Part shown: piece after piece, positions 24,694 to 39,940 of the stretch
How the letters are laid out: every line of letters begins with the position of its first letter
Numbering within the stretch: the stretch's first letter is position 1
Assembly: GCF_003143755.1 (NCBI RefSeq)
Contig: NZ_QFRI01000001.1
Location: forward strand, 496,001-560,000
Direction of reading: 5' to 3'
Origin: Algibacter marinivivus
GTDB taxonomy: Bacteria; Bacteroidota; Bacteroidia; Flavobacteriales; Flavobacteriaceae
Length of the DNA stretch: 64,000 bases
Made by a program: the position numbers and the translations under genes
Notes under the pieces: model-generated
Told to the model about the DNA's origin: nothing
The model's input: only the letters and a program-made list of their open reading frames with translations
Databases searched by the model: none

Positions 24694-27600
24694 TTAATCT
24701 TTAATTATAAGAGCCTTTGAAGTGTTATTTGTTCTTAATATATATATACCCGAAGTTAAAAACATAGGTAAACTTATGCGCGTTTCTTTGGTGTATTCAT
24801 TATAACTTTTATCAATAAAATTTATCAGTCTACCACTAATATCAAAAATATCAAAAGTATCTTCAGCGCTAGTATTGGTTATAAATAATTCCTTATTAAT
24901 AATTGGGTTTGGATACACGATACTTGAAAGGTCATCACCTGAATTAGATGTTTTCCCAAAAAAATATGGCACTGCAAAATTAAATGCATCTACTCCCACT
25001 TTTTTACCAATTTTTCTTCCTGAAATATCATCAGCTGGTGGATGAATGCCTCCCCAAATTCTAGATAAGCTACATTGATCTGAGGCATCTCTATAGGTTG
25101 CCCATTGCAAAACAATATCTGTTGAAGGTCCTTCTTCAAATACTAAAAATTCGTTCTTTCTTGCTACAAACTCACCCATACCCCCAGGGAAATATTCATC
25201 ACCTGTTATTAGTGTTAAAACCTCTGCTGCTGCTCTTGAATAGGTAGAATGACCAGAAACATATCCTGCAAATGGTGGTGTTACAAAAGATGGCCGTTGA
25301 TATGGCCACCAATCTTCAGCTAATATCCAGCCTACTCCAGCTTGATCCGTTTCTACATTACCAATATAATCATGACCTTTCCAGGAATACACTTTAATCT
25401 TTCCTAAGTTTTGCGAATTAAATCCAACTAAAGGATCATTTTCTTCTACTGTTTCAATGTAACCATCAAATAATTTAACACCCTCAGGATGAAAATTAGA
25501 TGCAGATGGGTCTGAACTTTGGCCTTTATCTGCCATATATCGAATAGCTGAAATAGGGCGTATATAATCATACCAACCTTTTATGCTCCAAGCAGAAATA
25601 GCTGAATCGTGCATAGCACCTCCTAAAATAAAATATGATTTCACATCCCATTCTATTGGAGAAAGAGATTCCCCTTCTCCTCTAAACTTTTTTGTTGACA
25701 ATGGATGGTCACTTACATAATTAAGCAATGAAAACCAATGCCCTGGTGGTGTTTCAGAATCAGGTCCATCTGCCCAAAACTCTGCTAATACTCTAGCATA
25801 ATCTCCTCTAGGGACTAATTGCTCATCGTATGCAATATTTGTTATAGGGTTTATGGTTCTACCTGTACCAACATCCCCACCTTCCAAGAGCTTATAAAAT
25901 TGAGGATAGTCTTCAAAATTATCTGGTAAAGATTCAAAATCTATATTTCCAATCGATTTTGGTGAAATATCCCATAACACACCATCACTTGAATCTAAAT
26001 GCGACGCCCATACTGATACTAACGAAAACCCCCACTTATATGCTTCACTTGATGCTGTTGTATTACTATCATCTAAGTAAGGTGGTGATAAAGGATCGTT
26101 ATATACTAAATAATCATTTCCATCCCGTTGATAACTTGTTAAGTCATCATTTTTTAAAGAAAAAGGCAAAACATTTCCCCACTCAGGGTTTAAAAAATCT
26201 AGCACATTCCCTTCTATAGGATTTCCACTTTGATCTATAAACGTTTCTAAACTCAAAGGTTGCCATCTGTTTGGGTTTTCAATAAATTCATTACCTGAAA
26301 AATCTGGAGCCATAGGATTGTTTATAGGCTCATAATAAGCATTATCATAATTAGATGCTTCTCTAGAACCATCAGTGTTTCCGTAATTAATAATTTCTTG
26401 AGCAATGTAATTTCCTAATGCTGCTGCATTACCAGTTTCATAGTCTGTAGCGGTATAATTAGTATCATATCCTAATTGATTCATGATTAAATTGAACTTT
26501 TCCCCAGACACCTTAAATCCTGGCGAGCTGGAGAAACGATAATTAAGTAATCTATAAGCCGCATAACTTATTGCTTTGTTTATAGATTCCTCTTTACTTT
26601 CAAGAGGACTAAAATCTAAAAGTTCGCTATTATAGTTATTTATGGTATTACCCACTAAGTACGGTCTAGCAATCTCATCATAAATAGCCCAAGCATCATA
26701 TAACGCTATACTGGTATGAAATAAATTTCTAGCATGAACTGTAGGGCGCGCAAAATCATTTCTAATAGCATCTAAAAGGGCTTCGTTCCATATTCTAGCA
26801 ATTGATTTATCTAATTCAACATCATCAATACTTAAATCGACTTCTAAACTAGCTGTTAAACTAGAACAACTAGCTGTAATTTCTATAACAGATATAGTTC
26901 CAATTGCATCTACTCCCCATTTCACTTTAACACTATCGGTTCCTTGTCCTTCAAGTATTTCTCCTCCTACGATACTCCACTGCGTTGTTGAACTTGGTGG
27001 TATAGGGTAGCTATATGTTTCTTCTTTTAAAAAACCTGAAGCCATATTACCCGAAATGTTTTTAACTTCTAGATAAGTACAAGACCCATCATCAACATAC
27101 GCATTTGGGTTGAAGGAACATGAAAGTGGATCTGTGCATCCAGAAATTTTTTCGCTTGGTTGAATATTTAAAACTTGATATCCTTGGCCTTCAATAGCCT
27201 TTATAGTCCTATTTGAATTTAGATTTTGATAGGTTTCAACCAAACCAGAGGGCCACTTAATAACTAATTCTGTAATATCAGTAGCATCATTTAATCCAAA
27301 ATGAACGGGTGTTAAACTCTGACCTAAAAAACCTATTCCTGAATAGTGCCTTTTTATAGTTCTATTTGCTGTTGTTAAAGTTAATTGGGTTCCAATAGCA
27401 TCTCTATTAGATTGAGTTCCTTGCAATATAACTTTAAACCAATTTAGACTATTGGTTTCATTAAAATTTAAAGTCTTATTTTCATAAAAATAAGATGGTC
27501 TATCATTATTAGTAACAAAAAGATCTATATCACCATCATTATCAAAATCAAAATCTACAGCGCTAACGCTAATCGTTAAATCCTTTAAATTTATACTTTC

Positions 27601-28719
27601 TGAAATCTCTTCAAATTCATCTTGACCTTCAACTAATAAATTTTTAAAATAGGCATTTTTCTCAGCACCAGAAAAGGAAAAAGAAAAGCCATTAACTACA
27701 AATAAATCATCATCTCCATCAAGATCAAAATCTGCAAATTTAGCATCCCAAGACCAGCCTACATCTTGTACATTTTTCTCTAAAGCTATATCAGTAAAAG
27801 TATTATCGCCATTATTTTCGAGCAAAATATTTTCGTTTATGTTTGTGACATAAAAATCAAAAAAGCCATCTCCATTATAATCTCCAATAGTAATACCCAT
27901 ATCATCTCCAGTATTAGCCAAACCATACGATTGAGCATCTTCAATAAATTGATTTCCAGATTGATTAATTAATAGTGGATTTGGGTTTTTTAAGTCATCT
28001 GAAATATACAGGTCCATCCATCCATCATTATTAAAGTCATAAGGGAAAGCTGAATATAGATTTTGTTTGCCTACTACTGGAAGTTTATCTGAAATATTAG
28101 TAAAAGTACCATCCTGATTATTCTCATAAAGTTTATCACTTTCGCAAGGTCCCCAAGTTGTAATGTGTAAATCTAAAAAGCCATCGTTATTATAATCAAA
28201 CCATGTTGAACTAGGATTAATACAGCCATTAAAGCCTTCAATTCCCGAGCTCATTGTAACATCCTGAAAATTTTGACCTCCGTCATTTAAGAATAACTGA
28301 ACTCTATTTGATGAGCTTACTAATATATCAGGAAAGCCATCATTATTATAATCTCCCCATGAAGCACCAAATTTATCTCCATTTAGAGCACCAGTTGGTA
28401 TGGTTTCTTGTTGACTTAGAGTTGCAATTAACCCTGTAGCTTGGGTAACATCTGTAAATGTTCCGTCATTATTATTTCTAAAGAGTTTACTATGTGATTT
28501 TTCAACTCCATCAATATCTACACTTTTTGCAACAACATATATATCTAAATCATTGTCGCCATCATAATCTGCAACAGATGCTCCATTGTTTTCCTCTAGT
28601 GCATTTAAGGCAGCAATACTTTCTACGCGTTTAAAAGATTGCGCAGTAATTATATTATTAAAAACAAGGAGAAGTAGTAAACTACTCAAAAAGCGTAGTA
28701 TATGCTGTTTACTTTTCAT
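24694..28719 (-). CDS. Secreted FG-GAP/ASPIC-vanadium haloperoxidase-like fusion
   Basis: 1341 residues. In order: signal peptide (about 1-26), seven FG-GAP/VCBS repeats (for example DYNNDGFPDILV, DYNGDGFFDFYV, DFDLDGDDDLFV) to about residue 410, an ASPIC/UnbV domain, a GCTDPLSCSFNPNAYVDDG calcium-type motif, a PKD-like stretch, then a PAP2/vanadium haloperoxidase-like domain with WDVKSYFILGGAMHDSA, GYVSGHSTYSRAAAEVL and RIWGGIHPPADDISGR, and a type IX sorting domain (YPNPIINKE...). The haloperoxidase class oxidises halides with peroxide. Substrate and metal use here are inferred. The beta-propeller may anchor or target the enzyme outside the cell. Confidence 0.88.
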   Translation of the reverse strand: MKSKQHILRFLSSLLLLLVFNNIITAQSFKRVESIAALNALEENNGASVADYDGDNDLDIYVVAKSVDIDGVEKSHSKLFRNNNDGTFTDVTQATGLIATLSQQETIPTGALNGDKFGASWGDYNNDGFPDILVSSSNRVQLFLNDGGQNFQDVTMSSGIEGFNGCINPSSTWFDYNNDGFLDLHITTWGPCESDKLYENNQDGTFTNISDKLPVVGKQNLYSAFPYDFNNDGWMDLYISDDLKNPNPLLINQSGNQFIEDAQSYGLANTGDDMGITIGDYNGDGFFDFYVTNINENILLENNGDNTFTDIALEKNVQDVGWSWDAKFADFDLDGDDDLFVVNGFSFSFSGAEKNAYFKNLLVEGQDEFEEISESINLKDLTISVSAVDFDFDNDGDIDLFVTNNDRPSYFYENKTLNFNETNSLNWFKVILQGTQSNRDAIGTQLTLTTANRTIKRHYSGIGFLGQSLTPVHFGLNDATDITELVIKWPSGLVETYQNLNSNRTIKAIEGQGYQVLNIQPSEKISGCTDPLSCSFNPNAYVDDGSCTYLEVKNISGNMASGFLKEETYSYPIPPSSTTQWSIVGGEILEGQGTDSVKVKWGVDAIGTISVIEITASCSSLTASLEVDLSIDDVELDKSIARIWNEALLDAIRNDFARPTVHARNLFHTSIALYDAWAIYDEIARPYLVGNTINNYNSELLDFSPLESKEESINKAISYAAYRLLNYRFSSSPGFKVSGEKFNLIMNQLGYDTNYTATDYETGNAAALGNYIAQEIINYGNTDGSREASNYDNAYYEPINNPMAPDFSGNEFIENPNRWQPLSLETFIDQSGNPIEGNVLDFLNPEWGNVLPFSLKNDDLTSYQRDGNDYLVYNDPLSPPYLDDSNTTASSEAYKWGFSLVSVWASHLDSSDGVLWDISPKSIGNIDFESLPDNFEDYPQFYKLLEGGDVGTGRTINPITNIAYDEQLVPRGDYARVLAEFWADGPDSETPPGHWFSLLNYVSDHPLSTKKFRGEGESLSPIEWDVKSYFILGGAMHDSAISAWSIKGWYDYIRPISAIRYMADKGQSSDPSASNFHPEGVKLFDGYIETVEENDPLVGFNSQNLGKIKVYSWKGHDYIGNVETDQAGVGWILAEDWWPYQRPSFVTPPFAGYVSGHSTYSRAAAEVLTLITGDEYFPGGMGEFVARKNEFLVFEEGPSTDIVLQWATYRDASDQCSLSRIWGGIHPPADDISGRKIGKKVGVDAFNFAVPYFFGKTSNSGDDLSSIVYPNPIINKELFITNTSAEDTFDIFDISGRLINFIDKSYNEYTKETRISLPMFLTSGIYILRTNNTSKALIIKD

Positions 28720-30485: not shown

Positions 30486-30515
30486 AAGTTTTAAATATTA
30501 ATTTTTAAAGATAAA

Positions 30516-30549
30516 AAAAACCTGCTTCAATTAATTGAAACAGGTTTTT
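30516..30549 (-). terminator. Terminator of the ELWxxDGT-1 operon
   Basis: A long near-perfect hairpin: AAAAACCTG pairs with CAGGTTTTT around a TTCAATTAATTGAA palindrome, with one mismatch. T runs on both strands make it bidirectional. Nearly the same hairpin stands at 39905-39940, at the other side of the two-cassette block. Confidence 0.85.
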
Positions 30550-30573: not shown

Positions 30574-30666
30574 CTAACTTAAAGCCAAAAAGATTAAACT
30601 GATTATAATTCCATAGAAAAAAAGAAAAAATAGTTCTAGCTTATATTTTTTAAATTTTGAAACCAT
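30574..30666 (-). CDS. 30-residue membrane micropeptide (paralogue of 35502-35585)
   Basis: A 30-codon ORF starting 2 bp after the stop of the cadherin-like lipoprotein gene. It has a charged N terminus followed by one hydrophobic helix. It aligns without gaps from the start Met with the 27-residue ORF at 35502-35585, sharing KYKLELF and FY at the same positions. Within that KYKLELF block four of seven codons differ and all four differences are synonymous, which indicates selection on protein. Both genes end an ELWxxDGT operon. No known family was recognised. Probably a single-span inner-membrane peptide. Confidence 0.7.
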   Translation of the reverse strand: MVSKFKKYKLELFFLFFYGIIISLIFLALS

Positions 30667-30668
30667 AA

Positions 30669-31052
30669 TCAGCCATTTTCATTAACATCTAAAATATTGA
30701 TAACTAATCTTGATTGCGTTTCTGATACACCATCTGAAACTTCAATGATAACTATGATAGATGTATTTTGCTCATAGTCAAAAGCACTTGCGTTAGCAAT
30801 GTAAATCTCTCCATTTGTTGAGTTTATAGTTACGCTATTTGCTGGTGTTTGTGATACTATTGAATAAGTTAATACATCTTCATCTCTATCTGTTGCTATA
30901 ATTGTAGTTAATAAATCTGATGTTGGATTTTCATCCATATTCATGGTTTGATTCTCAACTTCTGGTGCATTATTTTTTGGACTATCATCATTACTACAGC
31001 CTACTAGTGTTACTATTATAATTAATAGTATTAAGTTTTTAATTGTGTTCAT
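30669..31052 (-). CDS. Small cadherin-domain lipoprotein
   Basis: 127 residues. The lipobox is LVGCSND. One cadherin-like domain follows (MDENPTSDLL at the start, DRDEDVLTYSI, GEIYIANASAFDYEQ, DVNENG at the end). The acidic sites suggest calcium binding. It lies between ELWxxDGT protein 1 (29 bp upstream) and the micropeptide (2 bp downstream), so it is in the same operon. The second cassette has no counterpart. Confidence 0.85.
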   Translation of the reverse strand: MNTIKNLILLIIIVTLVGCSNDDSPKNNAPEVENQTMNMDENPTSDLLTTIIATDRDEDVLTYSIVSQTPANSVTINSTNGEIYIANASAFDYEQNTSIIVIIEVSDGVSETQSRLVINILDVNENG

Positions 31053-31081
31053 AATTTTAAGATTTGGGGTTATTATTTATT

Positions 31082-32716
31082 TTATTCTTTAATGAGTTTT
31101 TTGGTGACAGTTCCTTTATCGGTTTTAATTCTAACAAAATAAACTCCAGAAACTAAGGTTTGGATATTATAACTATTAATATTCTTTTTGAAGAGCTTTA
31201 ATTGCTTTCCTGAAATATCTAGAACTTCAACAGTTTCAATATTAGATTCTGTGTCAATTGAAAAACTATTTAATGTTGGATTTGGATAAAGTGAAATTGT
31301 ATTTCCTAAGTCTATTTCTCTCACAGATAATAATGGATCTTTATACCTCCATAATTCATTACCTGCAGAACCATTATCTGCTGAAAAGAATAATAAATTA
31401 TTAGCTACAATTAAATCTGTAGGGTTACTATTTCCTGATGGGTTTATATTACTAACCATAGTAGTTCCCGCATTTGTTCCATCAGTAACCCAAAGTTCTA
31501 CACCATTAGTTCCATCTGTCGCAGAAAAATAAACTTTACCATTATACTCGGCAAAATCTGTAGGGTTACTATCTGGTGAAGAAGGAGATGTATTAATGTT
31601 CTTTACCAAATTTGTGGTAGCAGGAAACCCAGTAGTGGACCACAACTCAATTCCACTAATATTATCATCAGCTGAAAAATACAATCTTCCTGAGGAGGCA
31701 TAAAGGTTTGAAGGGTTACTGCTACTACTTCCTGAAGCTATATTCTTCATATTAGTAAACGTTGTTCCACCCAATTTAAAGATTTCTGTTCCCAAAGATG
31801 GATGGGTTGCCGTGAAATAAAGTGCATTATTAAAAACAGTTAAGTTTTCTGGATTGTCCAAATCTTCAGCAACTGCATTTACATTTGCCATACGTTGAGT
31901 TCCAGCCAATGTCCCATCAGAAACCCAAAGTTCCCTACCATTCACACCATCATCTGCAGTAAAATATAAATTGCTGTTAAGAACAATTAAATCCATTGGA
32001 TTAGAACTAGCACCACCGGAATTAATATTAATCAACATATTTGTTCCAGCATTTGTCCCATTGGTAACCCACAACTCCCTTCCATTTGTTCCGTCATCTG
32101 TTGCAGCGAAATATAGCAGATTATTAAAAACAGTATATGAATCTGGCGACGAGCTGTTTCCTAAAGGGTTTATATCCTTTATCATTATTTGGTCTCCTCC
32201 ACCAGTCCAAGCATTCCCATTAAATCCGAGAATTTCCTCTCCATAAAATGGCGTAGATTGATTAAAAGCTGAAGGTCTTGCACTAAACACTAACAAATTC
32301 CCGAAAGTCGTAAGTAATCTTGGTGATGCTGAACCCGTACCACTTCTTATTGCTGGATAAGAGGAAATGGTTGTACCATTAGTAGAAAAAATATTGAACT
32401 TATTTTGTACACCAGCAGCTGAAAAATAAAGTTGAGAGTTAAATTCATGAAATCCATTTGGACTTGAATCGAGACCCCCAGATCTTACGTCGCTTAAAAG
32501 AATAGTTCCGGTACTCGTGCCGTCAGATTCCCAAAGTTCCATTCCATCTGCACCGTTATCGGCGGCAAATATGAGCTTCCCACCAAAAGCAATTCTATTT
32601 TTAGCATACGAAGGCATGCTACTTGGGAAACCCAAATTTATATCCTTAACTAAACTCTGCGCTTGAATAAAAGTATATGTCAATAATGACATAAAAAGTA
32701 ATGTTCTTTTCATCAT
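31082..32716 (-). CDS. Type IX-secreted ELWxxDGT-repeat protein 1
   Basis: 544 residues. A signal peptide (cut near TFIQA-Q) precedes a beta-propeller-like array of about nine repeats near 45 residues each, carrying ELWESDGT, ELWVTNGT, ELWVSDGT, ELWVTDGT and degenerate forms. The C terminus (SLYPNPTLNSF... ending VTKKLIKE) is a type IX type A sorting domain, so the protein should be exported and attached to the surface. Its promoter carries the CTACCC-n4-GGGTAG operator. It is a paralogue of the protein encoded at 35582-37165. Ligand unknown. Confidence 0.88.
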   Translation of the reverse strand: MMKRTLLFMSLLTYTFIQAQSLVKDINLGFPSSMPSYAKNRIAFGGKLIFAADNGADGMELWESDGTSTGTILLSDVRSGGLDSSPNGFHEFNSQLYFSAAGVQNKFNIFSTNGTTISSYPAIRSGTGSASPRLLTTFGNLLVFSARPSAFNQSTPFYGEEILGFNGNAWTGGGDQIMIKDINPLGNSSSPDSYTVFNNLLYFAATDDGTNGRELWVTNGTNAGTNMLININSGGASSNPMDLIVLNSNLYFTADDGVNGRELWVSDGTLAGTQRMANVNAVAEDLDNPENLTVFNNALYFTATHPSLGTEIFKLGGTTFTNMKNIASGSSSSNPSNLYASSGRLYFSADDNISGIELWSTTGFPATTNLVKNINTSPSSPDSNPTDFAEYNGKVYFSATDGTNGVELWVTDGTNAGTTMVSNINPSGNSNPTDLIVANNLLFFSADNGSAGNELWRYKDPLLSVREIDLGNTISLYPNPTLNSFSIDTESNIETVEVLDISGKQLKLFKKNINSYNIQTLVSGVYFVRIKTDKGTVTKKLIKE

Positions 32717-32739
32717 AAATAGGTTTTAAAAGTTTAATG

Positions 32740-32785
32740 TAAAAGTAAATTGGAGAGTAAAAGCATGTACTACCCAATTGGGTAG
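32740..32785 (-). promoter_or_regulatory. Operator/promoter of ELWxxDGT operon 1
   Basis: A perfect 16 bp palindrome CTACCCAATTGGGTAG (32770-32785) lies 22 bp upstream of TACTTTTA (minus strand, 32740-32747), which fits the -7 box position. The ATG is 23 bp further. The half-sites TACCC/GGGTA fit the TACyy/rrGTA form bound by NarL-type response regulators. Its place, overlapping the -33 region, suggests activation by the adjacent regulator. Confidence 0.72.
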
Positions 32786-32811
32786 AAGTAAAAAAAGTAT
32801 TTTTTAATGTG

Positions 32812-33435
32812 CTACAGCAAGTTTTCTTTATTTGCTTTCTGAACAGCTTCGATATTAGAGTTTACCTGAAGTTTAATATAAATGTTCTTTAAGTGAAATT
32901 TGATGGTATTTCTACTGATAAACAGTTGTTCAGCAATACTATCGTAAGTATTTCCCCGAGATAGCAGAGATAATACTTCTTTTTCTCTAGGAGATAATTC
33001 TATTTTACTAGGTTTTATTTGAAAAGAGCTTACCACCATTTTAGCAATTTTAATGCTCATTGGTGCTCCACCAGCTACACATTCGTTAAGTGCATCTTGA
33101 AGTTCTTTGGGACTTATGCTCTTTGTTAAATACCCTGATGCCCCAGCACATAATGCTTCAAAAACGATTCCAGAATTTTCAAAAACTGTAACCATTATTA
33201 TATTAGCCTTTGGCGAAGCTTTTTTAATACGTTTTGTACCCTCTACACCATTCATTCCAAGTAATTCAATATCCATCAAAAAGATATTAGCATTATCGTA
33301 TTTCAATCGCTCAATAGCTTCTTCACAATTATCATAACAGTTAATGAGTTCAAAATTATCAGTAGCTTTTATTACTTCCGCAAACCCATCTCTTAAAGGA
33401 ATATTATCTTCAATTATTACTACCCTATGCTTCAT
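32812..33435 (-). CDS. NarL/LuxR-type response regulator 1
   Basis: 207 residues. The receiver domain (1-120) has Glu9-Asp10, the phospho-acceptor Asp55 (FLMDIELLG) and Lys105 (LTKS). The LuxR HTH at 145-207 contains LSPREKEVLSLLSRG and ISRNTIKFHLKNIY. It overlaps the kinase gene by 11 bp, as expected for a cognate pair. It should bind the palindromes at 32770 and 35460. It shares about the whole length with regulator 2 at 37248. Confidence 0.95.
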   Translation of the reverse strand: MKHRVVIIEDNIPLRDGFAEVIKATDNFELINCYDNCEEAIERLKYDNANIFLMDIELLGMNGVEGTKRIKKASPKANIIMVTVFENSGIVFEALCAGASGYLTKSISPKELQDALNECVAGGAPMSIKIAKMVVSSFQIKPSKIELSPREKEVLSLLSRGNTYDSIAEQLFISRNTIKFHLKNIYIKLQVNSNIEAVQKANKENLL

Positions 33436-35413
33436 CTTTTAATTTACCTATAAAAATTATGGTAGTCCCTTTTCCAATACTTGAATCAACATAAAGTTTA
33501 CAATCAATTTTATTTGCTCTATCTTTCATATGAGATAACCCATTTAATGATTCCAAATCACTTTCTAAAACACCCACACCATCATCTTCACAAACAATTC
33601 TAAGTTCCATATTTTTATAATTAAACGAAAGTGTTACCACACTACTATTAGAATGCTTTAAGGCATTCGTAAGCGCTTCCTTAAAAATAAAAATCAACTG
33701 TTTACTCCAATGGTAAGGCAACTTTATATTATCAGAAATATTTTTGTTTACGATAAACTTAACTTCAGTTTTATTAAACATGTCTCCTCCAAAATCAGAC
33801 AAATAAGTAGCAACCTCTTCTAAGTAATTACTATTAGATTTCAAAGAAAATATAAAATCTCTAGTTCCTTTATAAAGTCCATTAGCATCTTCACTAATTT
33901 GTTGAATCTTTGATTTTACTTGTGGATTTTTTATAGAAATTTCTCCACTTATTAAATTTGATAGTAGAGATATTCTTGCTAGTTTATTTCCAAGGTCATC
34001 ATGAAAATCTTTGGCTATCTCATCTCTAACATCTGATAGTTCTTTTTCTAGTTTTAGTCGTTTTTCAATTGACAGTTTTAATTCTTGGTTCTTTCTTTGT
34101 GTTTTCTTTAATTGTATTCTTGTTCCAACAAATAAAATACATACAATTACTAATAATGCTATTATTAGCAATACTATTAGTCTTTTAATTTGAGCTTGCT
34201 TATTTTGAATTTCTAAAGTATTAATTGTTTTTTGCTGATTTAGACTTCTAATTTCGGCATCCTTCAATTCAGTTTCATATTTAGTTTCAAGCTCTTTAAT
34301 TGACTTTATTCGCTCCAAATCATTTAATTCTCTAACAAATTGTTCTTTTTCTTCTAATGCTATTAATGCTAAATTAGAATTATTAAAGTGCTTATAAACT
34401 TCATGTTTAAAATTTGAAATTTCTATAGCAAAATACGGATCAGACTTAATTTTTAATAGATTTAACGAATCTATAAATGCTATGGCTTCACTCCTTTTAT
34501 TTAATACCTTATTTACTCGCCCTAAAAGACAATAGGCATTTAAGATTAAAGGCTCTGTAATTAACTCTCTATTTTTTAATATTGAATTAGAGTAAGTAAT
34601 AGCCTTTCTATAATCTCCATTTAAAAAACTGTGTTCACCTAAAACACAAAAACTAACTGGCTTTGTATAATCAAAGTTATTTTCTTCGGCAATTATTAAT
34701 GCTTTTTCAGCATATCTCTTTGCTAAATCAGCTTCTTTAGCATATTTGTTTTTTTTTGATGCCTCCATATACTGCTCTGCAGCATAATTATATATAAGCG
34801 TTTCTAACAAATCATCTTGTATATCATTTTTTTCTATAACATCAACCGCTTTAGAAATATATTCTAATTGCTTTTCGTATTCTCGTTGTGCAGTATAAAC
34901 CAAAGAAATACCGTAATAAGCATTTGCTTCTGATTTATAACTCTGCGTTTTATGTGAAGCCTTAGCTGCACTAAGGAAATGCTTAATTGCTTCGAAAAAG
35001 TTGTCTTGATTTTGATATAAAGTACCTAGTTTATTATGAAAATCCGTTTTTTTGACAATATCATTTATATGAGATGCTTTTTTAAGTCCCCTTTTGAAAT
35101 AAGTTTCTGCTTCTTTGAAGTTTTGCTCAACTAAATGCCCTACGCCATTATATTTTAATGCTTCTATTTCTAAAGGAATATGTCTTATGGTCTGTGACAG
35201 CTTTAACGCCTTTCTTCCATAAAGAATAAGTGAATCTCCTTTCCCTGTAGTTTGATAATAATACTTAGCTAAATCTAAATAAGCATTTACCAGTAATGAA
35301 TCATTAGACACTTCAATTTTCTTGCGTAGTTCAGACTCTAAGCTTTGAGAAAAAGTGAAATTTATTGCTAAAAGAAATAAGCAATGTCTAAAAAAACTAT
35401 GTAAATACACCAT
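33425..35413 (-). CDS. TPR sensor histidine kinase 1
   Basis: 662 residues from the ATG at 35413. The longer start at 35467 would begin inside the operator palindrome and upstream of the -7 box, so it is rejected. In order: signal peptide, TPR repeats (to about residue 330), coiled coil, one membrane span (about 410-430), and a HisKA_3-type transmitter with phospho-acceptor His471 in FHDDLGNKLARI and HATPase motifs KEALTNALKHS and CEDDGVGV. TPRs lie outside the cytoplasm and probably sense a peptide or protein signal. It is transcribed with its response regulator. Confidence 0.92.
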   Translation of the reverse strand: MVYLHSFFRHCLFLLAINFTFSQSLESELRKKIEVSNDSLLVNAYLDLAKYYYQTTGKGDSLILYGRKALKLSQTIRHIPLEIEALKYNGVGHLVEQNFKEAETYFKRGLKKASHINDIVKKTDFHNKLGTLYQNQDNFFEAIKHFLSAAKASHKTQSYKSEANAYYGISLVYTAQREYEKQLEYISKAVDVIEKNDIQDDLLETLIYNYAAEQYMEASKKNKYAKEADLAKRYAEKALIIAEENNFDYTKPVSFCVLGEHSFLNGDYRKAITYSNSILKNRELITEPLILNAYCLLGRVNKVLNKRSEAIAFIDSLNLLKIKSDPYFAIEISNFKHEVYKHFNNSNLALIALEEKEQFVRELNDLERIKSIKELETKYETELKDAEIRSLNQQKTINTLEIQNKQAQIKRLIVLLIIALLVIVCILFVGTRIQLKKTQRKNQELKLSIEKRLKLEKELSDVRDEIAKDFHDDLGNKLARISLLSNLISGEISIKNPQVKSKIQQISEDANGLYKGTRDFIFSLKSNSNYLEEVATYLSDFGGDMFNKTEVKFIVNKNISDNIKLPYHWSKQLIFIFKEALTNALKHSNSSVVTLSFNYKNMELRIVCEDDGVGVLESDLESLNGLSHMKDRANKIDCKLYVDSSIGKGTTIIFIGKLKDEA

Positions 35414-35428
35414 TAGATTATTAAAACT

Positions 35429-35479
35429 TAAAAGTACAAAAACCTTTAAAAGCGAAAACCTACCCAATTGGGTAGGTTT
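35429..35479 (-). promoter_or_regulatory. Operator/promoter of kinase-regulator operon 1
   Basis: A perfect 24 bp palindrome (35456-35479) contains the same CTACCCAATTGGGTAG core (35460-35475) as the ELWxxDGT-1 promoter. After 23 bp comes TACTTTTA (35429-35436), and the kinase ATG is 15 bp further. The core-to-box distance is the same as in the other three promoters within 1 bp, which supports autoregulation by a NarL-type protein. Confidence 0.75.
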
Positions 35480-35501
35480 AAAAAATCAATTCACAGTTTT
35501 C

Positions 35502-35585
35502 TTATGCTAAAAAGTAAAACAAAAGCATACTATAAAAAAGTGCTAAGAATAATTCTAGTTTGTATTTTTCAAAATAAGTCATCAT
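35502..35585 (-). CDS. 27-residue membrane micropeptide (paralogue of 30574-30666)
   Basis: A 27-codon ORF whose first ATG overlaps the stop codon of ELWxxDGT protein 2 (ATGA), so translation is coupled. It begins MMTYFEKYKLELF and ends in one hydrophobic helix. Aligned with the 30-residue peptide from the other cassette, residues 5, 7-13 and 17-18 are identical, and the shared KYKLELF codons differ only synonymously. The first ATG is preferred because it keeps this alignment gap-free. Function unknown. Confidence 0.7.
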   Translation of the reverse strand: MMTYFEKYKLELFLALFYSMLLFYFLA

Positions 35586-37165
35586 ATTTTCACTAACTTT
35601 TTAACACTTTTACCATTAATAGTCTTTATTGATACAAAATAAATTCCAGCGTCTAAACTTTCAATATCATAATAGTTCAAGTCGTTTTTGAAAGATATCA
35701 TCTTTTTTCCTTCAAGATTTAATATATCTACTCCTTTTACAATCGCTTTCGTTTGAATAGTAAATCCTTTTTGAGAAGGGTTTGGGTATAAATTAAATTC
35801 ATTTAATTCAGTATTGCTAATCGATAATGTAGGGTCTTTATACTTCCAAAGTTCTCTTCCAGACACGCCATCATCTGCAGAGAAAAACAATTCATTATTA
35901 TATACAGTTAAACCTATTGGATCGCTGTCTGATCCTGCATTAATATTTGCAACCATAATCGTCCCATTTGTAGTACCATCAGTTACCCAAAGTTCTCTTC
36001 CATTTGTGCCATCATCTGCATTAAAATAAAGTTTTCCATTATATTCTGTAAAGCCCATTGGCGTGCTTTCTCCTATTGGGTCAATATCTTTAGTCATTAC
36101 TGTTGTGAATGATGTTCCTGAAGTTTCCCACAATTCTATTCCATTTACACCATCATTTGTAGAAAAATAAAGCTTACCGTTAAAAACCGTTAAATTATTA
36201 GGAAAACTATCTGCTGCTCCAGGATTAATATTAGCTGCCTGAGTAATGTTCCCGTTAGTTCCAACGTAAAATAACTCATTCCCTACAACAGCGCTAGTAG
36301 CTGTAAAATAAAGCCTATTATTGTATATAGTTAAATTTTGAGGATTACTATCAACACTTCCTGGGTTTAAATCTAATACTAATTGTGTGCCACTAACCGT
36401 TCCATCTGTTTCCCATAGCTCACGTCCAGTTGTGCCGTTATCAGCTGTAAAGTATAATTTATTATTAAAGACAATTAAATTTTGAGGCCTACTATCATCA
36501 TTTGGGTTAATATCAATTAGCAACTGTGTTCCTGATGTAGTTCCATCGGTAAAATAAAGCTCAATTCCTTCAGTAGCTATAGAGGTTCTGGCGGCAAAAT
36601 AAAGCAATCCATTATACTCTGTAAATCCATCAGGATTGCTATCTGTGGTAGAAGTTGATGTATTTATATCTTTCAATCTTGTTGTTCCTGCATTAGTACC
36701 ATCACTAATCCAAAGTTCACGTCCTGCGATACCATCAAATGCAGAAAAAATAAGATTTCCGTTATACTCTGTATAATATAATGGAGTTGAATTTGACGAA
36801 CCAGGGTTAATATCTTTTAAAACAGAAAACGAAAGCCCGTTCCCTTTCCAAATTTCTTTGCCATCTGTATTGTTCTCGGCTGTAAAATACAAATTTCCAT
36901 TATATGATATCAATCCAGTTGGCGAGCTATCTGCCGCTCCAGGATTATAATCTGCCACTCCATTTACAAACGCACCATTAGAATAAGACAATTCTTCACC
37001 TGTTAAACCAGTTACGGTAGTTGTAAAATATAACGTACCATTATGTACATGAAACTTTTGTGGAAAAGTACCTACTGACCCTGGAAAAAAATCATCTACA
37101 AGGCTTGCCTGCGAATTAGAATAAATTGATGTTAGAATAAAACATAAAAGTAATAATTGTTTCAT
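35582..37165 (-). CDS. Type IX-secreted ELWxxDGT-repeat protein 2
   Basis: 527 residues. A signal peptide (cut near SNSQA) precedes about nine propeller-like repeats with ELWISDGT, ELYFTDGT, ELWETDGT, ELWVTDGT and similar, then a type IX sorting domain (NLYPNPSQKGF ... KSVKKLVKI). Paralogue of the protein at 31082-32716. Its promoter has a degenerate copy of the CTACCC-type palindrome. The stop codon overlaps the micropeptide start. Confidence 0.88.
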   Translation of the reverse strand: MKQLLLLCFILTSIYSNSQASLVDDFFPGSVGTFPQKFHVHNGTLYFTTTVTGLTGEELSYSNGAFVNGVADYNPGAADSSPTGLISYNGNLYFTAENNTDGKEIWKGNGLSFSVLKDINPGSSNSTPLYYTEYNGNLIFSAFDGIAGRELWISDGTNAGTTRLKDINTSTSTTDSNPDGFTEYNGLLYFAARTSIATEGIELYFTDGTTSGTQLLIDINPNDDSRPQNLIVFNNKLYFTADNGTTGRELWETDGTVSGTQLVLDLNPGSVDSNPQNLTIYNNRLYFTATSAVVGNELFYVGTNGNITQAANINPGAADSFPNNLTVFNGKLYFSTNDGVNGIELWETSGTSFTTVMTKDIDPIGESTPMGFTEYNGKLYFNADDGTNGRELWVTDGTTNGTIMVANINAGSDSDPIGLTVYNNELFFSADDGVSGRELWKYKDPTLSISNTELNEFNLYPNPSQKGFTIQTKAIVKGVDILNLEGKKMISFKNDLNYYDIESLDAGIYFVSIKTINGKSVKKLVKI

Positions 37166-37196
37166 AGTATATTAAGTTTAAAAGTTTTGAGTGCTA

Positions 37197-37242
37197 CAAA
37201 ACTATACCTAAGAAACATCTTTTCCGCCACCCCTCAGGGTAG
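37197..37242 (-). promoter_or_regulatory. Operator/promoter of ELWxxDGT operon 2
   Basis: On the minus strand, CTACCCTGAGGGGTGG (37227-37242) is an imperfect copy of the palindrome in the other promoters. It is followed after 22 bp by TAGTTTTG (37197-37204), an exact TAnnTTTG -7 box. The site begins 5 bp after the stop codon of response regulator 2. Confidence 0.7.
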
Positions 37243-37247
37243 AATTT

Positions 37248-37871
37248 CTATATCAAATTTTCTTTATTTGCTTTTTGAACTGCCATAACATTAGAGTTTA
37301 CTTGAAGTTTAGCGTAAATTTTTTTTAGATGAAACTTAATTGTGTTTTTACTAATAAAAAGCTTGTTTGCTATAACACTATAACTATTTCCATCAGATAA
37401 CATCATTAGGACTTCCTTCTCTCTTTCAGAAAGTGAAATTTCACTTTGTTTTTTTTGAAAGGAACCTACAACCATTTTTGCAATTTTTATGCTCATTGGC
37501 GCTCCACCTTCAATTGTTTCGTTTAAAGCATTGATTAATTTTTCTGGTGATAAACTTTTGGTAAGATACCCTGTTGCGCCAGCACATAAAGCATCAAAAA
37601 CCATTGTAGAATTTTCATGAACCGTAACCATTAAAATATTACAATTAGGTTGCATGCTTTTAATTTGTTTTGTGCCTTCAACACCATTAATACCCGGCAA
37701 ATCAATATCTACAAGATATATATCAGCATCATCCTTTTTTATATTTTCTATGGCAGTTTCACAAGTTTCGTATATACTAACAACATGAAAATTTTCTGTT
37801 TTATTTATACTGGTAGCAAAACCATGACTTAGCGGAATATTGTCTTCAATAATAACAACTTTATATTTCAT
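37248..37871 (-). CDS. NarL/LuxR-type response regulator 2
   Basis: 207 residues, the same length as regulator 1 and homologous throughout. Receiver domain with Asp55 (YLVDIDLPG), acidic pair at 9-10, Lys in LTKS. The HTH has LSEREKEVLMMLSDG and ISKNTIKFHLKKIY, close to regulator 1 in the recognition helix, so the two may bind overlapping sets of sites. The gene follows kinase 2 by 12 bp. Confidence 0.95.
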   Translation of the reverse strand: MKYKVVIIEDNIPLSHGFATSINKTENFHVVSIYETCETAIENIKKDDADIYLVDIDLPGINGVEGTKQIKSMQPNCNILMVTVHENSTMVFDALCAGATGYLTKSLSPEKLINALNETIEGGAPMSIKIAKMVVGSFQKKQSEISLSEREKEVLMMLSDGNSYSVIANKLFISKNTIKFHLKKIYAKLQVNSNVMAVQKANKENLI

Positions 37872-37883
37872 TTTTATTCTTAT

Positions 37884-39818
37884 TTATTCTGTTTTACCCT
37901 CAAAAGAAATAGTAGTTCCTTTATTTTCCACACTTATTATCTGTAGTTTTCCGCCAATTTTTTCAGCTCTTTTTTTCATGTTCAATAGTCCGTTTTTAGA
38001 GTCTAACAAAGCAGATTCAATACCAACCCCATTATCTTCACAACTAATTTTCAGCACTTCTTTAGCATACTCAAATTTTAAGATTAAAGTATCACTTTTT
38101 GAATATTTGAAAGCATTAGTCATCGCTTCTTTGAATATGTAAATGAGTTGTTTACTCCAATAATGAGGTAACTTTTTATTTAGATTGATATTTTTATCTA
38201 AAATGAAATTGATATTAGTTTTATCAAAATAATCTTCTGCAAAATCAGATAAATACGTAATTACTTCTTCCAAATAATCACTATTTGGTTTTAATGAAAA
38301 AATAAAGTCTTTAGTCCCTACATATAAACTTACTGTATCTTCTTTTACCTGTATTACTTTTTCTTTTACAGCGTTATTTGCTTCTGATAACTCATCTTCA
38401 ACCAGTCTGGTTAAAAAAGAAATTCGAGCTAACTTATTTCCTAAATCATCATGAAAGTCTTGAGCTATATTATTTCGTACATTCATAAGCTCTTTTTCTA
38501 ATTCTAATTGTTGCGTGATAGCTCGCTTTAATGCACGATTTTTTCCACGGCTTTTTTTAAGTTGAGTTATTTTTAGTATTAATCCTCCTAATAAAATAAT
38601 GGCTATTGCAATTATTAATAACGTCCACAATCGCTTTATTTCAGCATCTTTTAGTTCAGTTTGGTATTTGGTTTCAAGTTCATTTATAGCCTTATTTTGC
38701 TCAATTTCTTTCTTTTTATTTTCAAAATCGAAATAACTATCTAAAGCTTCAAAAGCTAAATCAAAATCATTAAAAGTTTTATATGAAGTATACCTATACT
38801 TTTCAATTATTGAACCATAATAAGGACGTTCTCTTAGTTTTAAGTTATGAAGCGAATCCAAATAAATATAACATAATTCTTTTTCATTTTTTGATCTATG
38901 AATATGAGCTAAAGTCATAAAAACATTAAGCTTAGTATCCTGCTTCATATATTCCGTATAACCTAACGCTTCTTCTGAATATTTTTGAGCTAAATCAGAA
39001 TTACCTACATTAATATGATGGGAGCTTAACACTATCAAATCTGATGGTATACGTTGATTCAATTGATTTTCTTTGGAAATTTTTAAAGCTTTTTGCGCAT
39101 ATACAAGTGAAGAGTCTTTATAATTTTCATATTCAGGTTCAGACCCTAAAACAGAATATTGTTGTGCTGCAGAACCATAAATAATATTTTTAGCCAAAGG
39201 TGAAATATCATTTTTAATACTACAAAAATTTATAGCCTTTGATAAGTAATGCAGCTGCTTTTCAGTTTGATTTTGAGTTGAATAAATTACTGAAATACCA
39301 TAGTAAGCCATGGCAGCAGTTTTAAAATCCGATGTTTTTTCTGCATATTTACTAGCCTTTAACAAATGATTAATGGCTTTAGCTAGCTTATCTGTATTTT
39401 GATAAAGGCCTCCTAATCTATTATGGGTCTCTGCAAGTTCTTTTAAATTATTATTAGACTCAGCTAAACTTAAACTTTGATTTAAATAATTCTCAGCTTT
39501 ATCATAATCCCTGTTAATCATATAACCAGAACCAATAAGTCTTAAACTTCCAATTTCATTATCAATATCATTTTTAATTTTAGATAACTTATATATTTTT
39601 TTACCAAAACCAATCATAGAATCTCCTTTTCCTGTAGACTCATAATAATGGTTTGCCAAATTGAAATAAGTTTTGATTTTAATTGAATCCGAAGAACTAT
39701 TTAATTGACTTCTTAACTCAAATTCTTTATTTTGAGCATCAATAGGTATAGATAGAAATAAAAAGACAGTAAGAATGTAAAGGTTTATTCTACAATATTT
39801 TTTGAAAACAATAATCAT
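37884..39818 (-). CDS. TPR sensor histidine kinase 2
   Basis: 644 residues. Signal peptide (cut near IDAQ), TPRs to about residue 330, coiled coil, one membrane span (about 397-416), HisKA_3 transmitter with His456 in FHDDLGNKLARI, then HATPase motifs KEAMTNAFKYS and CEDNGVGIE. Homologous along its length to kinase 1. Its ATG lies 13 bp after the -7 box, the same arrangement as the corrected start of kinase 1. Confidence 0.93.
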   Translation of the reverse strand: MIIVFKKYCRINLYILTVFLFLSIPIDAQNKEFELRSQLNSSSDSIKIKTYFNLANHYYESTGKGDSMIGFGKKIYKLSKIKNDIDNEIGSLRLIGSGYMINRDYDKAENYLNQSLSLAESNNNLKELAETHNRLGGLYQNTDKLAKAINHLLKASKYAEKTSDFKTAAMAYYGISVIYSTQNQTEKQLHYLSKAINFCSIKNDISPLAKNIIYGSAAQQYSVLGSEPEYENYKDSSLVYAQKALKISKENQLNQRIPSDLIVLSSHHINVGNSDLAQKYSEEALGYTEYMKQDTKLNVFMTLAHIHRSKNEKELCYIYLDSLHNLKLRERPYYGSIIEKYRYTSYKTFNDFDLAFEALDSYFDFENKKKEIEQNKAINELETKYQTELKDAEIKRLWTLLIIAIAIILLGGLILKITQLKKSRGKNRALKRAITQQLELEKELMNVRNNIAQDFHDDLGNKLARISFLTRLVEDELSEANNAVKEKVIQVKEDTVSLYVGTKDFIFSLKPNSDYLEEVITYLSDFAEDYFDKTNINFILDKNINLNKKLPHYWSKQLIYIFKEAMTNAFKYSKSDTLILKFEYAKEVLKISCEDNGVGIESALLDSKNGLLNMKKRAEKIGGKLQIISVENKGTTISFEGKTE

Positions 39819-39831
39819 AAAATTAAAAAAA

Positions 39832-39878
39832 CCAAGTTACAAAAAGCTAAAACAAAAATAAGCTACCTTAAAGGGTAG
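39832..39878 (-). promoter_or_regulatory. Operator/promoter of kinase-regulator operon 2
   Basis: An imperfect palindrome, CTACCCTTTAAGGTAG on the minus strand (39863-39878), is followed by 23 bp and TAACTTGG (39832-39839), one base off TAnnTTTG. Spacing matches the other three cassette promoters. Confidence 0.65.
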
Positions 39879-39904
39879 TAATATGTAAGGGAAGGGATGA
39901 AATA

Positions 39905-39940
39905 AAAAAACCTATTTCAATTAATTGAAACAGGTTTTTT
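39905..39940 (-). terminator. Terminator of the pdhA-pdhC unit or cassette boundary
   Basis: A hairpin with the same TTTCAATTAATTGAAA centre and CCT/AGG arms as the one at 30516-30549, with A and T runs. It lies 45 bp downstream of pdhC, so it should end that unit on the minus strand. Its match with the hairpin at the far side of the two-cassette block is notable. Confidence 0.8.

Follow-up and report, generated by a model that had tools for sequence, protein, structure and literature searches.

Tandem sensor-regulator-cargo cassettes in Algibacter marinivivus are likely autoregulated two-component islands for single type IX surface proteins

Two cassettes with a common gene order

The window analyzed here, a 64,000-nucleotide stretch of Algibacter marinivivus contig NZ_QFRI01000001.1 whose positions are used throughout, contains two gene cassettes (A and B) on the minus strand, arranged head to tail between a pdhC-like gene and an M28-type peptidase-like gene (Table 1). 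Both follow the same order, comprising a kinase with tetratricopeptide repeats (TPR) and a HisKA_3 domain, a NarL-type regulator, an ELWxxDGT protein with a sorting tail of the type IX secretion system (T9SS), here called the cargo, and a micropeptide. A preliminary description of the region 30574-39878 had claimed two tandem cassettes of this four-part composition, and all four parts were found twice on the minus strand; its list for cassette B was however incomplete, as a cadherin-like putative lipoprotein (31052-30669) had been omitted. We consider it likely that each cassette represents a self-contained, positively autoregulated two-component island dedicated to one surface protein.

HisKA_3 and HATPase_c domains in the kinase and receiver and GerE domains in the regulator place the pair among the HisKA_3/NarL two-component systems. 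Of 26 related kinases, all contain HisKA_3 and 25 HATPase_c, and six match a Reg_prop propeller sensor in place of TPR. Residue H456, which we take to be the candidate for the conserved phosphorylated histidine, is invariant in the 26 kinases, and D55, presumably the phospho-acceptor aspartate, in seven regulators. The signal peptide and membrane segment suggest that the TPR domain of the kinase is periplasmic. The preliminary suggestion that this domain senses the surface or the cargo itself found no support in the analysis, and the six kinases with a Reg_prop match have another type of sensor. Kinase B probably starts at ATG 35413 rather than at TTG 35467, because its palindrome and -10 box fall inside the longer TTG frame.

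Both cargos are members of the ELWxxDGT family by score (TIGR04534, 385.3 and 336.4 bits; cut-off 65 bits) and also exceed the cut-off for T9SS type A sorting domains (TIGR04183, 39.2 and 54.8 bits; cut-off 23 bits), and are predicted to be exported to the surface through the T9SS. The nine matches listed between the cargo and solved chains all cover the sorting-tail region and none covers the ELWxxDGT repeats, and the term "ELWxxDGT" gave no paper in the collection searched.

Table 1 Features of the two cassettes and their flanks, in minus-strand order (aa, amino acids).
Feature	Position	Strand	Remarks
Gene read as pdhC	41619-39985		Name from sequence, not family search; flank on cassette A side
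Terminator-like hairpin	39904-39939	-	Before cassette A, after pdhC-like gene; z -6.1
Palindrome CTACCCTTTAAGGTAG	39863-39878	-	Upstream of kinase A; nearest -10-like box TAACTTGG (39839-39832), imperfect
Kinase A, 644 aa	37884-39818	-	TPR repeats, HisKA_3, HATPase_c; signal peptide and one membrane segment read from sequence
Regulator A, 207 aa	37248-37871	-	Response_reg and GerE (NarL/LuxR type)
Palindrome CTACCCTGAGGGGTGG, one mismatch	37227-37242	-	Upstream of cargo A; putative -10 box TAGTTTTG (37204-37197)
Cargo A, 527 aa	35582-37165	-	ELWxxDGT repeats, T9SS type A sorting tail; TIGR04534 E 4.1e-118, TIGR04183 E 4.9e-10
Micropeptide A, 27 aa	35502-35585	-	Overlaps cargo A stop codon (ATGATGA); E 9.7e-11, itself a model seed
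Palindrome CTACCCAATTGGGTAG	35460-35475	-	Upstream of kinase B; arms extend to a 10-bp stem; putative -10 box TACTTTTA (35436-35429)
Kinase B, 662 aa from ATG 35413	33425-35413	-	TPR, HisKA_3, HATPase_c; frame open from TTG 35467
Regulator B, 207 aa	32812-33435	-	Response_reg and GerE
Palindrome CTACCCAATTGGGTAG	32770-32785	-	Upstream of cargo B; putative -10 box TACTTTTA (32747-32740)
Cargo B, 544 aa	31082-32716	-	ELWxxDGT repeats, T9SS type A sorting tail
Cadherin-like putative lipoprotein, 127 aa	30669-31052	-	Between cargo B and micropeptide B; PF00028 E 8e-09; lipoprotein signal read from sequence
Micropeptide B, 30 aa	30574-30666	-	E 4.4e-13, itself a model seed
Terminator-like hairpin	30514-30549	-	End of cassette B; z -5.9
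Gene read as M28-type peptidase	30485-29463		Name from sequence, not family search; flank on cassette B side

Palindromes, promoter geometry and regulator classes

Four palindromes are found in the two cassettes, two of them being CTACCCAATTGGGTAG and the other two deviating from it at one of twelve fixed bases. The preliminary description had placed one such palindrome before each unit; the four sites are real, but one precedes every kinase and every cargo gene and not the cassettes alone. A count restricted to the window would not convince, with nine loose matches (up to three mismatches) observed against 5.2 expected and 6 of 100 shuffles reaching as many, but the sites are convincing when loci are compared. 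Regulator alignment A1, used to scan genome contigs, returned 79 loci, and the analysis of gene order and sites covered 34 of these (L070-L103, the first listed) together with the two modules of the window, L035 and a second module in L077, in total 38 regulators; the remaining 45 loci were used for the micropeptide search alone. In 36 loci (560,176 bases), CTACC-N6/7-GGTAG was present 61 times as an exact match, whereas 19 patterns with permuted half-sites averaged 0.53 and gave at most 2. The gap was 6 bases in 37 of these sites and 7 bases in 24, and all gaps of 0-5 and 8-15 bases together gave four sites.

The position of the sites relative to the promoter is similarly constrained. The motif TAnnTTT starts 21, 22 or 23 bases past the palindrome at 6, 29 and 13 sites, respectively (48 of 61, none counted twice), and since the flavobacterial -10 box spans -12 to -5 according to PMC9723704, the dyad is centered near -42. 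These 48 sites thereby have the geometry of class II activation, with a dyad near -41.5 beside the promoter elements; the palindrome would occupy the place of a class II activator, and binding and activation by the regulator are predicted. When sorted by target gene (here and in the module-order counts below, one mismatch was allowed), the clean box was found at 27/34 downstream-gene (cargo-type) sites and 9/12 regulator sites. In the window it follows the kinase B and cargo B sites; 22 bases past the cargo A site, which has one mismatch and hence is not one of the 61, stands TAGTTTTG. Some sites are followed within 10 bases by a TTG, possibly part of a -33 box, namely 12/27 kinase, 4/12 regulator and 1/34 downstream-gene sites, the last of which fits cargo promoters that depend on an activator.

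By site type, the 38 regulators divide into a gap-6 class (15), a gap-7 class (11), a CTACAT class (3) and regulators with no assigned site (9). The gene order, whose absence from other genomes would have refuted the preliminary description by its own account, does recur in other Flavobacteriaceae: all 15 gap-6 modules have an adjacent kinase, a site before the kinase and a site before the downstream gene, 14 have a gene with a T9SS motif within 6 kb (15/15 by a tail model partly built from cargos of the same modules), and 12 encode a micropeptide. The three CTACAT modules all have the kinase and both sites, together with a T9SS motif gene in two (3/3 by the tail model) and a micropeptide in two. 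One of them (L035) is a third module from the A. marinivivus genome itself, on another contig. Its kinase has a long N-terminal sensor that we interpret as a Reg_prop propeller, and its regulator (L035:5233-5853) has 61% identity to regulator A; the module further encodes a micropeptide, a T9SS-tailed cargo interpreted as leucine-rich and a lipoprotein interpreted as LamG-like. The sites of this module, CTACAT-N5-ATGTAG, are likewise found upstream of both kinase and cargo.

Judged from these sequences, site type tracks the regulator tree, in which the 15 gap-6 regulators form one clade and the three CTACAT regulators another (each 100/99). The recognition helix reads NTIKFHLKNIYIKLQVNS in most gap-6 regulators, NTIRFH[IV]KNIY in all three CTACAT regulators and NTIKYH[IV]KNIYDKLQVH in 7/11 gap-7 regulators. 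In a Lacinutrix record (L077:6013-15830), a gap-6 module lies in tandem with a gap-7 module, and both have a kinase, a regulator and a micropeptide of their own, which makes this record a natural case for insulation. Three distant regulator relatives lacking CTACC sites (L088, L091, L099) adjoin SusC/SusD-like pairs, recognized by length and lipoprotein signal only.

The regulator was matched at E ≤1e-55 in 7/299 genomes of the family, including that of the window, and the family is therefore patchy. Where a gap-6 module is present (10 genomes), 24 of the 33 exact gap-6 sites lie within the module, and the other nine compare with 13 hits of a reversed control pattern; six other genomes (five without the regulator at the above threshold, the sixth being G392, which was outside the regulator search) contain 10 exact sites against 12 for the control. 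The sites are thus nearly confined to the module, which points to a closed regulon with hardly any other genomic target. Outside the window, the A. marinivivus genome has 25 near-matches to the palindrome (up to two mismatches), of which 21 were looked at. Ten of these belong to a dispersed intergenic repeat, another ten fall within coding frames and one lies between convergent genes, and as far as these 21 go a genome-wide regulon of the window regulators was rejected.

A micropeptide family associated with type IX cargos

The micropeptides are hydrophobic, with 27-30 residues, and are probably short single-span membrane peptides made together with the type IX cargo. A profile built on 14 peptides gave 20 matches at E ≤2.7e-5, which correspond to 17 distinct places including the 14 seeds, the best decoy having an E-value of 0.38. 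The three non-seed places are L076, L083, which nearly copies a seed, and the second place in L077; a possible remote relative was seen in L085 near 1116 on the minus strand (E 9.2). In five chosen pairs, 52.5 of 90.2 synonymous and 56.5 of 341.8 nonsynonymous sites were changed (0.58 vs 0.17 per site), two of the pairs being saturated at synonymous sites; a sixth pair was computed and kept out of the pool as it shared a member. The micropeptides are a real family under purifying selection, and the possibility of a chance open frame was rejected on the profile matches compared to decoys and on the synonymous excess. The peptide is very likely translated and selected, and travels with the cargo. 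No Pfam or NCBIfam match was found for micropeptide B, the one scanned, and none of the papers listed by the literature searches described the family.

Among 397 genomes of the family, 30 had a micropeptide match at E ≤0.01, with 41 matches in total, which is an upper figure since three matches sit inside frames of ~460 residues and five contain a stop. Neighborhoods were read for 20 of the 41, mostly the stronger ones; the weakest matches, those of the window and those in the further known modules of G085:C28 and G240 were not among them. In 18 of these 20 contexts a frame with a T9SS tail ends within 3 kb upstream of the micropeptide, compared to a background of 188/3330 positions (5.6%, own-genome stretches only), and eight tails from seven of these contexts passed the NCBIfam cut-off when checked; L187 and L194 have no T9SS-tail gene within 3 kb upstream. 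Two-component genes were recognized in eight contexts, with four regulator classes: NarL-type (L179, the same contig as L073), LytTR (L184, L186, L188, L189, and L197 by likeness only), AraC-type hybrid (L191) and OmpR-type (L198). In 11 contexts none was recognized by motif labels in the stretch read, and one (L180) is cut by the contig end. Several of the LytTR, AraC-type and OmpR-type loci (L184, L186, L188, L189, L191, L197, L198) have TPR or Reg_prop sensors; these loci have apparently reached the same layout through different regulators.

The micropeptide was described in the preliminary account as a part of the module. It is indeed present in both cassettes, but goes with type IX cargos generally rather than with this kinase, and its role as a fixed part of the kinase circuit is weakened by the 18/20 contexts in which it follows a type IX cargo under varied regulators or none seen. 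The same contexts bear on what it might do. Other kinases are acted on by small membrane proteins, and the micropeptide would share a regulator with the kinase, so that it could be a feedback regulator of the neighboring sensor kinase as MgrB or SafA are for PhoQ; given the number of contexts with no recognized two-component gene, the four regulator classes in the other eight and the constancy of the upstream cargo, we find this doubtful. By their descriptions, MgrB, SafA and KdpF resemble the micropeptide in being short membrane proteins or peptides made with a signaling or transport system, and differ in that the micropeptide follows T9SS cargo genes under several regulator classes. A little more plausible, and still tentative, is that the KYKLELF micropeptides are hitherto undescribed accessories of the type IX cargo, which might aid its hand-over to the export route or report its transit to the controlling sensor.

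Predicted circuit, alternatives and known systems

In the proposed circuit, the kinase would sense a signal through its TPR domain in the periplasm and phosphorylate the adjacent NarL-type regulator, as the intact domains and the adjacency of the two genes suggest. A regulator dimer is predicted to bind CTACC-N6-GGTAG just upstream of the -10 box, centered near -42, and to activate both the kinase-regulator promoter, giving positive feedback, and the promoter of the type IX-exported ELWxxDGT protein and the micropeptide; activation of both is proposed because of the identity, the position and the covariation of the sites. The preliminary claim that the regulator controls its own operon and the cargo thus appears very likely to hold, based on the shared palindrome, its distance to the -10 box, the covariation of site and regulator and the confinement of the sites. 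Regulators A and B share one site class and would probably cross-talk, and the third module, with its CTACAT-N5-ATGTAG sites, should be insulated from both.

Several observations weigh against this circuit. The gap-7 class is looser: an adjacent kinase and a site before the downstream gene are each found in 9/11 modules (one such site set by hand), a site before the kinase in 6/11, a micropeptide in 3/11 and a T9SS motif gene in 4/11 (6/11 by the tail model, with less than 3.6 kb of contig left in four of the five modules lacking one), and the gap-7 label requires three changes on the regulator tree. Nine of the 38 regulators, all distant, have no assigned exact sites, and these have a kinase in 7/9 cases, a T9SS gene in 1/9 and a micropeptide in 0/9. 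At the kinase promoters the clean TAnnTTT box at 21-23 bases is found for only 16 of 27 sites, and the kinase A site in the window lacks it and is outside the 48. Finally, the position of the sites is in itself also compatible with repression.

From an operator next to the -33 region, the regulator might also block the polymerase and so repress its operons in a negative autoregulation. Activation from near -42 is common for NarL-type regulators, and the cargo-type promoters, with their nearly absent TTG, look weak without an activator; we therefore regard repression as improbable. More improbable still is that the palindromes are RNA hairpins, i.e. terminators or attenuators, rather than operators. 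They can fold: at the kinase promoters the arms are extended in 13/27 cases and a run of four T follows within 12 bases in 14/27, and the folding energy is -15.4 kcal/mol (z -4.5) for the kinase B site, with a z of -3.1 for the cargo B site. However, many shuffles fold as well as the remaining two window sites do (z -0.7 and -1.6), and downstream-gene sites have the T run in 4/34 and an extended arm in 0/34 cases. The sequence is furthermore conserved beyond pairing, as the counts for permuted arms indicate, and it shifts with the regulator clade, while the spacing from the palindrome to the -10 box hardly varies. Terminators were on these grounds mostly rejected; a dual role as operator and terminator is possible at the kinase promoters, and the kinase B palindrome, with its 10-bp stem, could be such a case.

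That cassette A simply arose from B by a recent tandem duplication, as their adjacency and identical gene order might suggest, is hardly credible and was rejected on the identities between them (kinases 43%, cargos 44%, regulators 68%) and on the tree, where a group (100/96) unites regulator B with regulators from Hyunsoonleella aquatilis and an uncultured Flaviramulus and leaves out A, so that A either split off before those lineages diverged or came from elsewhere. The cassette is missing between the two flanking genes in all four relatives looked at (two from the same genus and two congeners of G240, a genome that itself carries one cassette), in which the pdhC-like gene is followed by the peptidase-like gene 100-125 bases on.

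The nearest described analogue is FimS/FimR from Porphyromonas gingivalis, in which, in the passages seen, a periplasmic TPR sensor and inner-membrane kinase works with a regulator that activates surface fimbriae, and FimR binds the mfa1 promoter (PMC11053733, PMC1974823). The targets there are fimbriae and here an ELWxxDGT T9SS cargo, and the same passages mention no such palindrome or micropeptide. Residues 11-200 of kinase A match the NCBIfam FimS model (E 1.7e-6), but the score is 26.6 bits against a cut-off of 600 (NF053520), and no FimS match was among those listed for kinase B. The cassettes may work like FimS/FimR in principle, although they fall short of the FimS cut-off and by their domains are of the HisKA_3/NarL type. 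With NarXL, DesKR and VraSR of that class they share the make-up of transmitter and regulator, and differ from them in the TPR or Reg_prop sensors and in the apparent target, an adjacent T9SS cargo. PorX/PorY is likewise a two-component system tied to type IX secretion (PMC8050853); it governs genes of the secretion machine among others, whereas the cassettes have one apparent cargo target and a regulator with GerE. The preliminary statement that no such system had been described has thus to be narrowed: the principle is known from FimS/FimR, and for the four-part combination no description was found among the papers listed by the literature searches, some of which were aimed at other questions.

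The switching of individual type IX cargos is, to our knowledge, poorly understood. The cassettes yield base-resolution predictions of the regulator, its DNA site, the promoter geometry and the target, in variants expected to be insulated from each other, which makes binding specificity and cross-talk directly testable. The micropeptide, very short, under purifying selection and tied to type IX cargos, offers a handle on a possible unknown step in surface display. If it is an accessory, and if the cassettes are closed islands with swappable sensor, regulator and cargo, flavobacteria would display surface proteins in a modular manner, one at a time.

Downstream of the cassettes and on the same strand, the window encodes a 1341-residue protein (24694-28719) with a PNP-type T9SS tail, assigned by motif, which has no exact palindrome of the CTACC class upstream. 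The dispersed intergenic repeat contains TTACCCTAAAGGGTCGGGCT and nearby CAATCCCTAACGC-like ends and was found at ten of the places read in the A. marinivivus genome, examples being L036:8657, L037:2945, L038:3091, L049:2071 and L050:2277.

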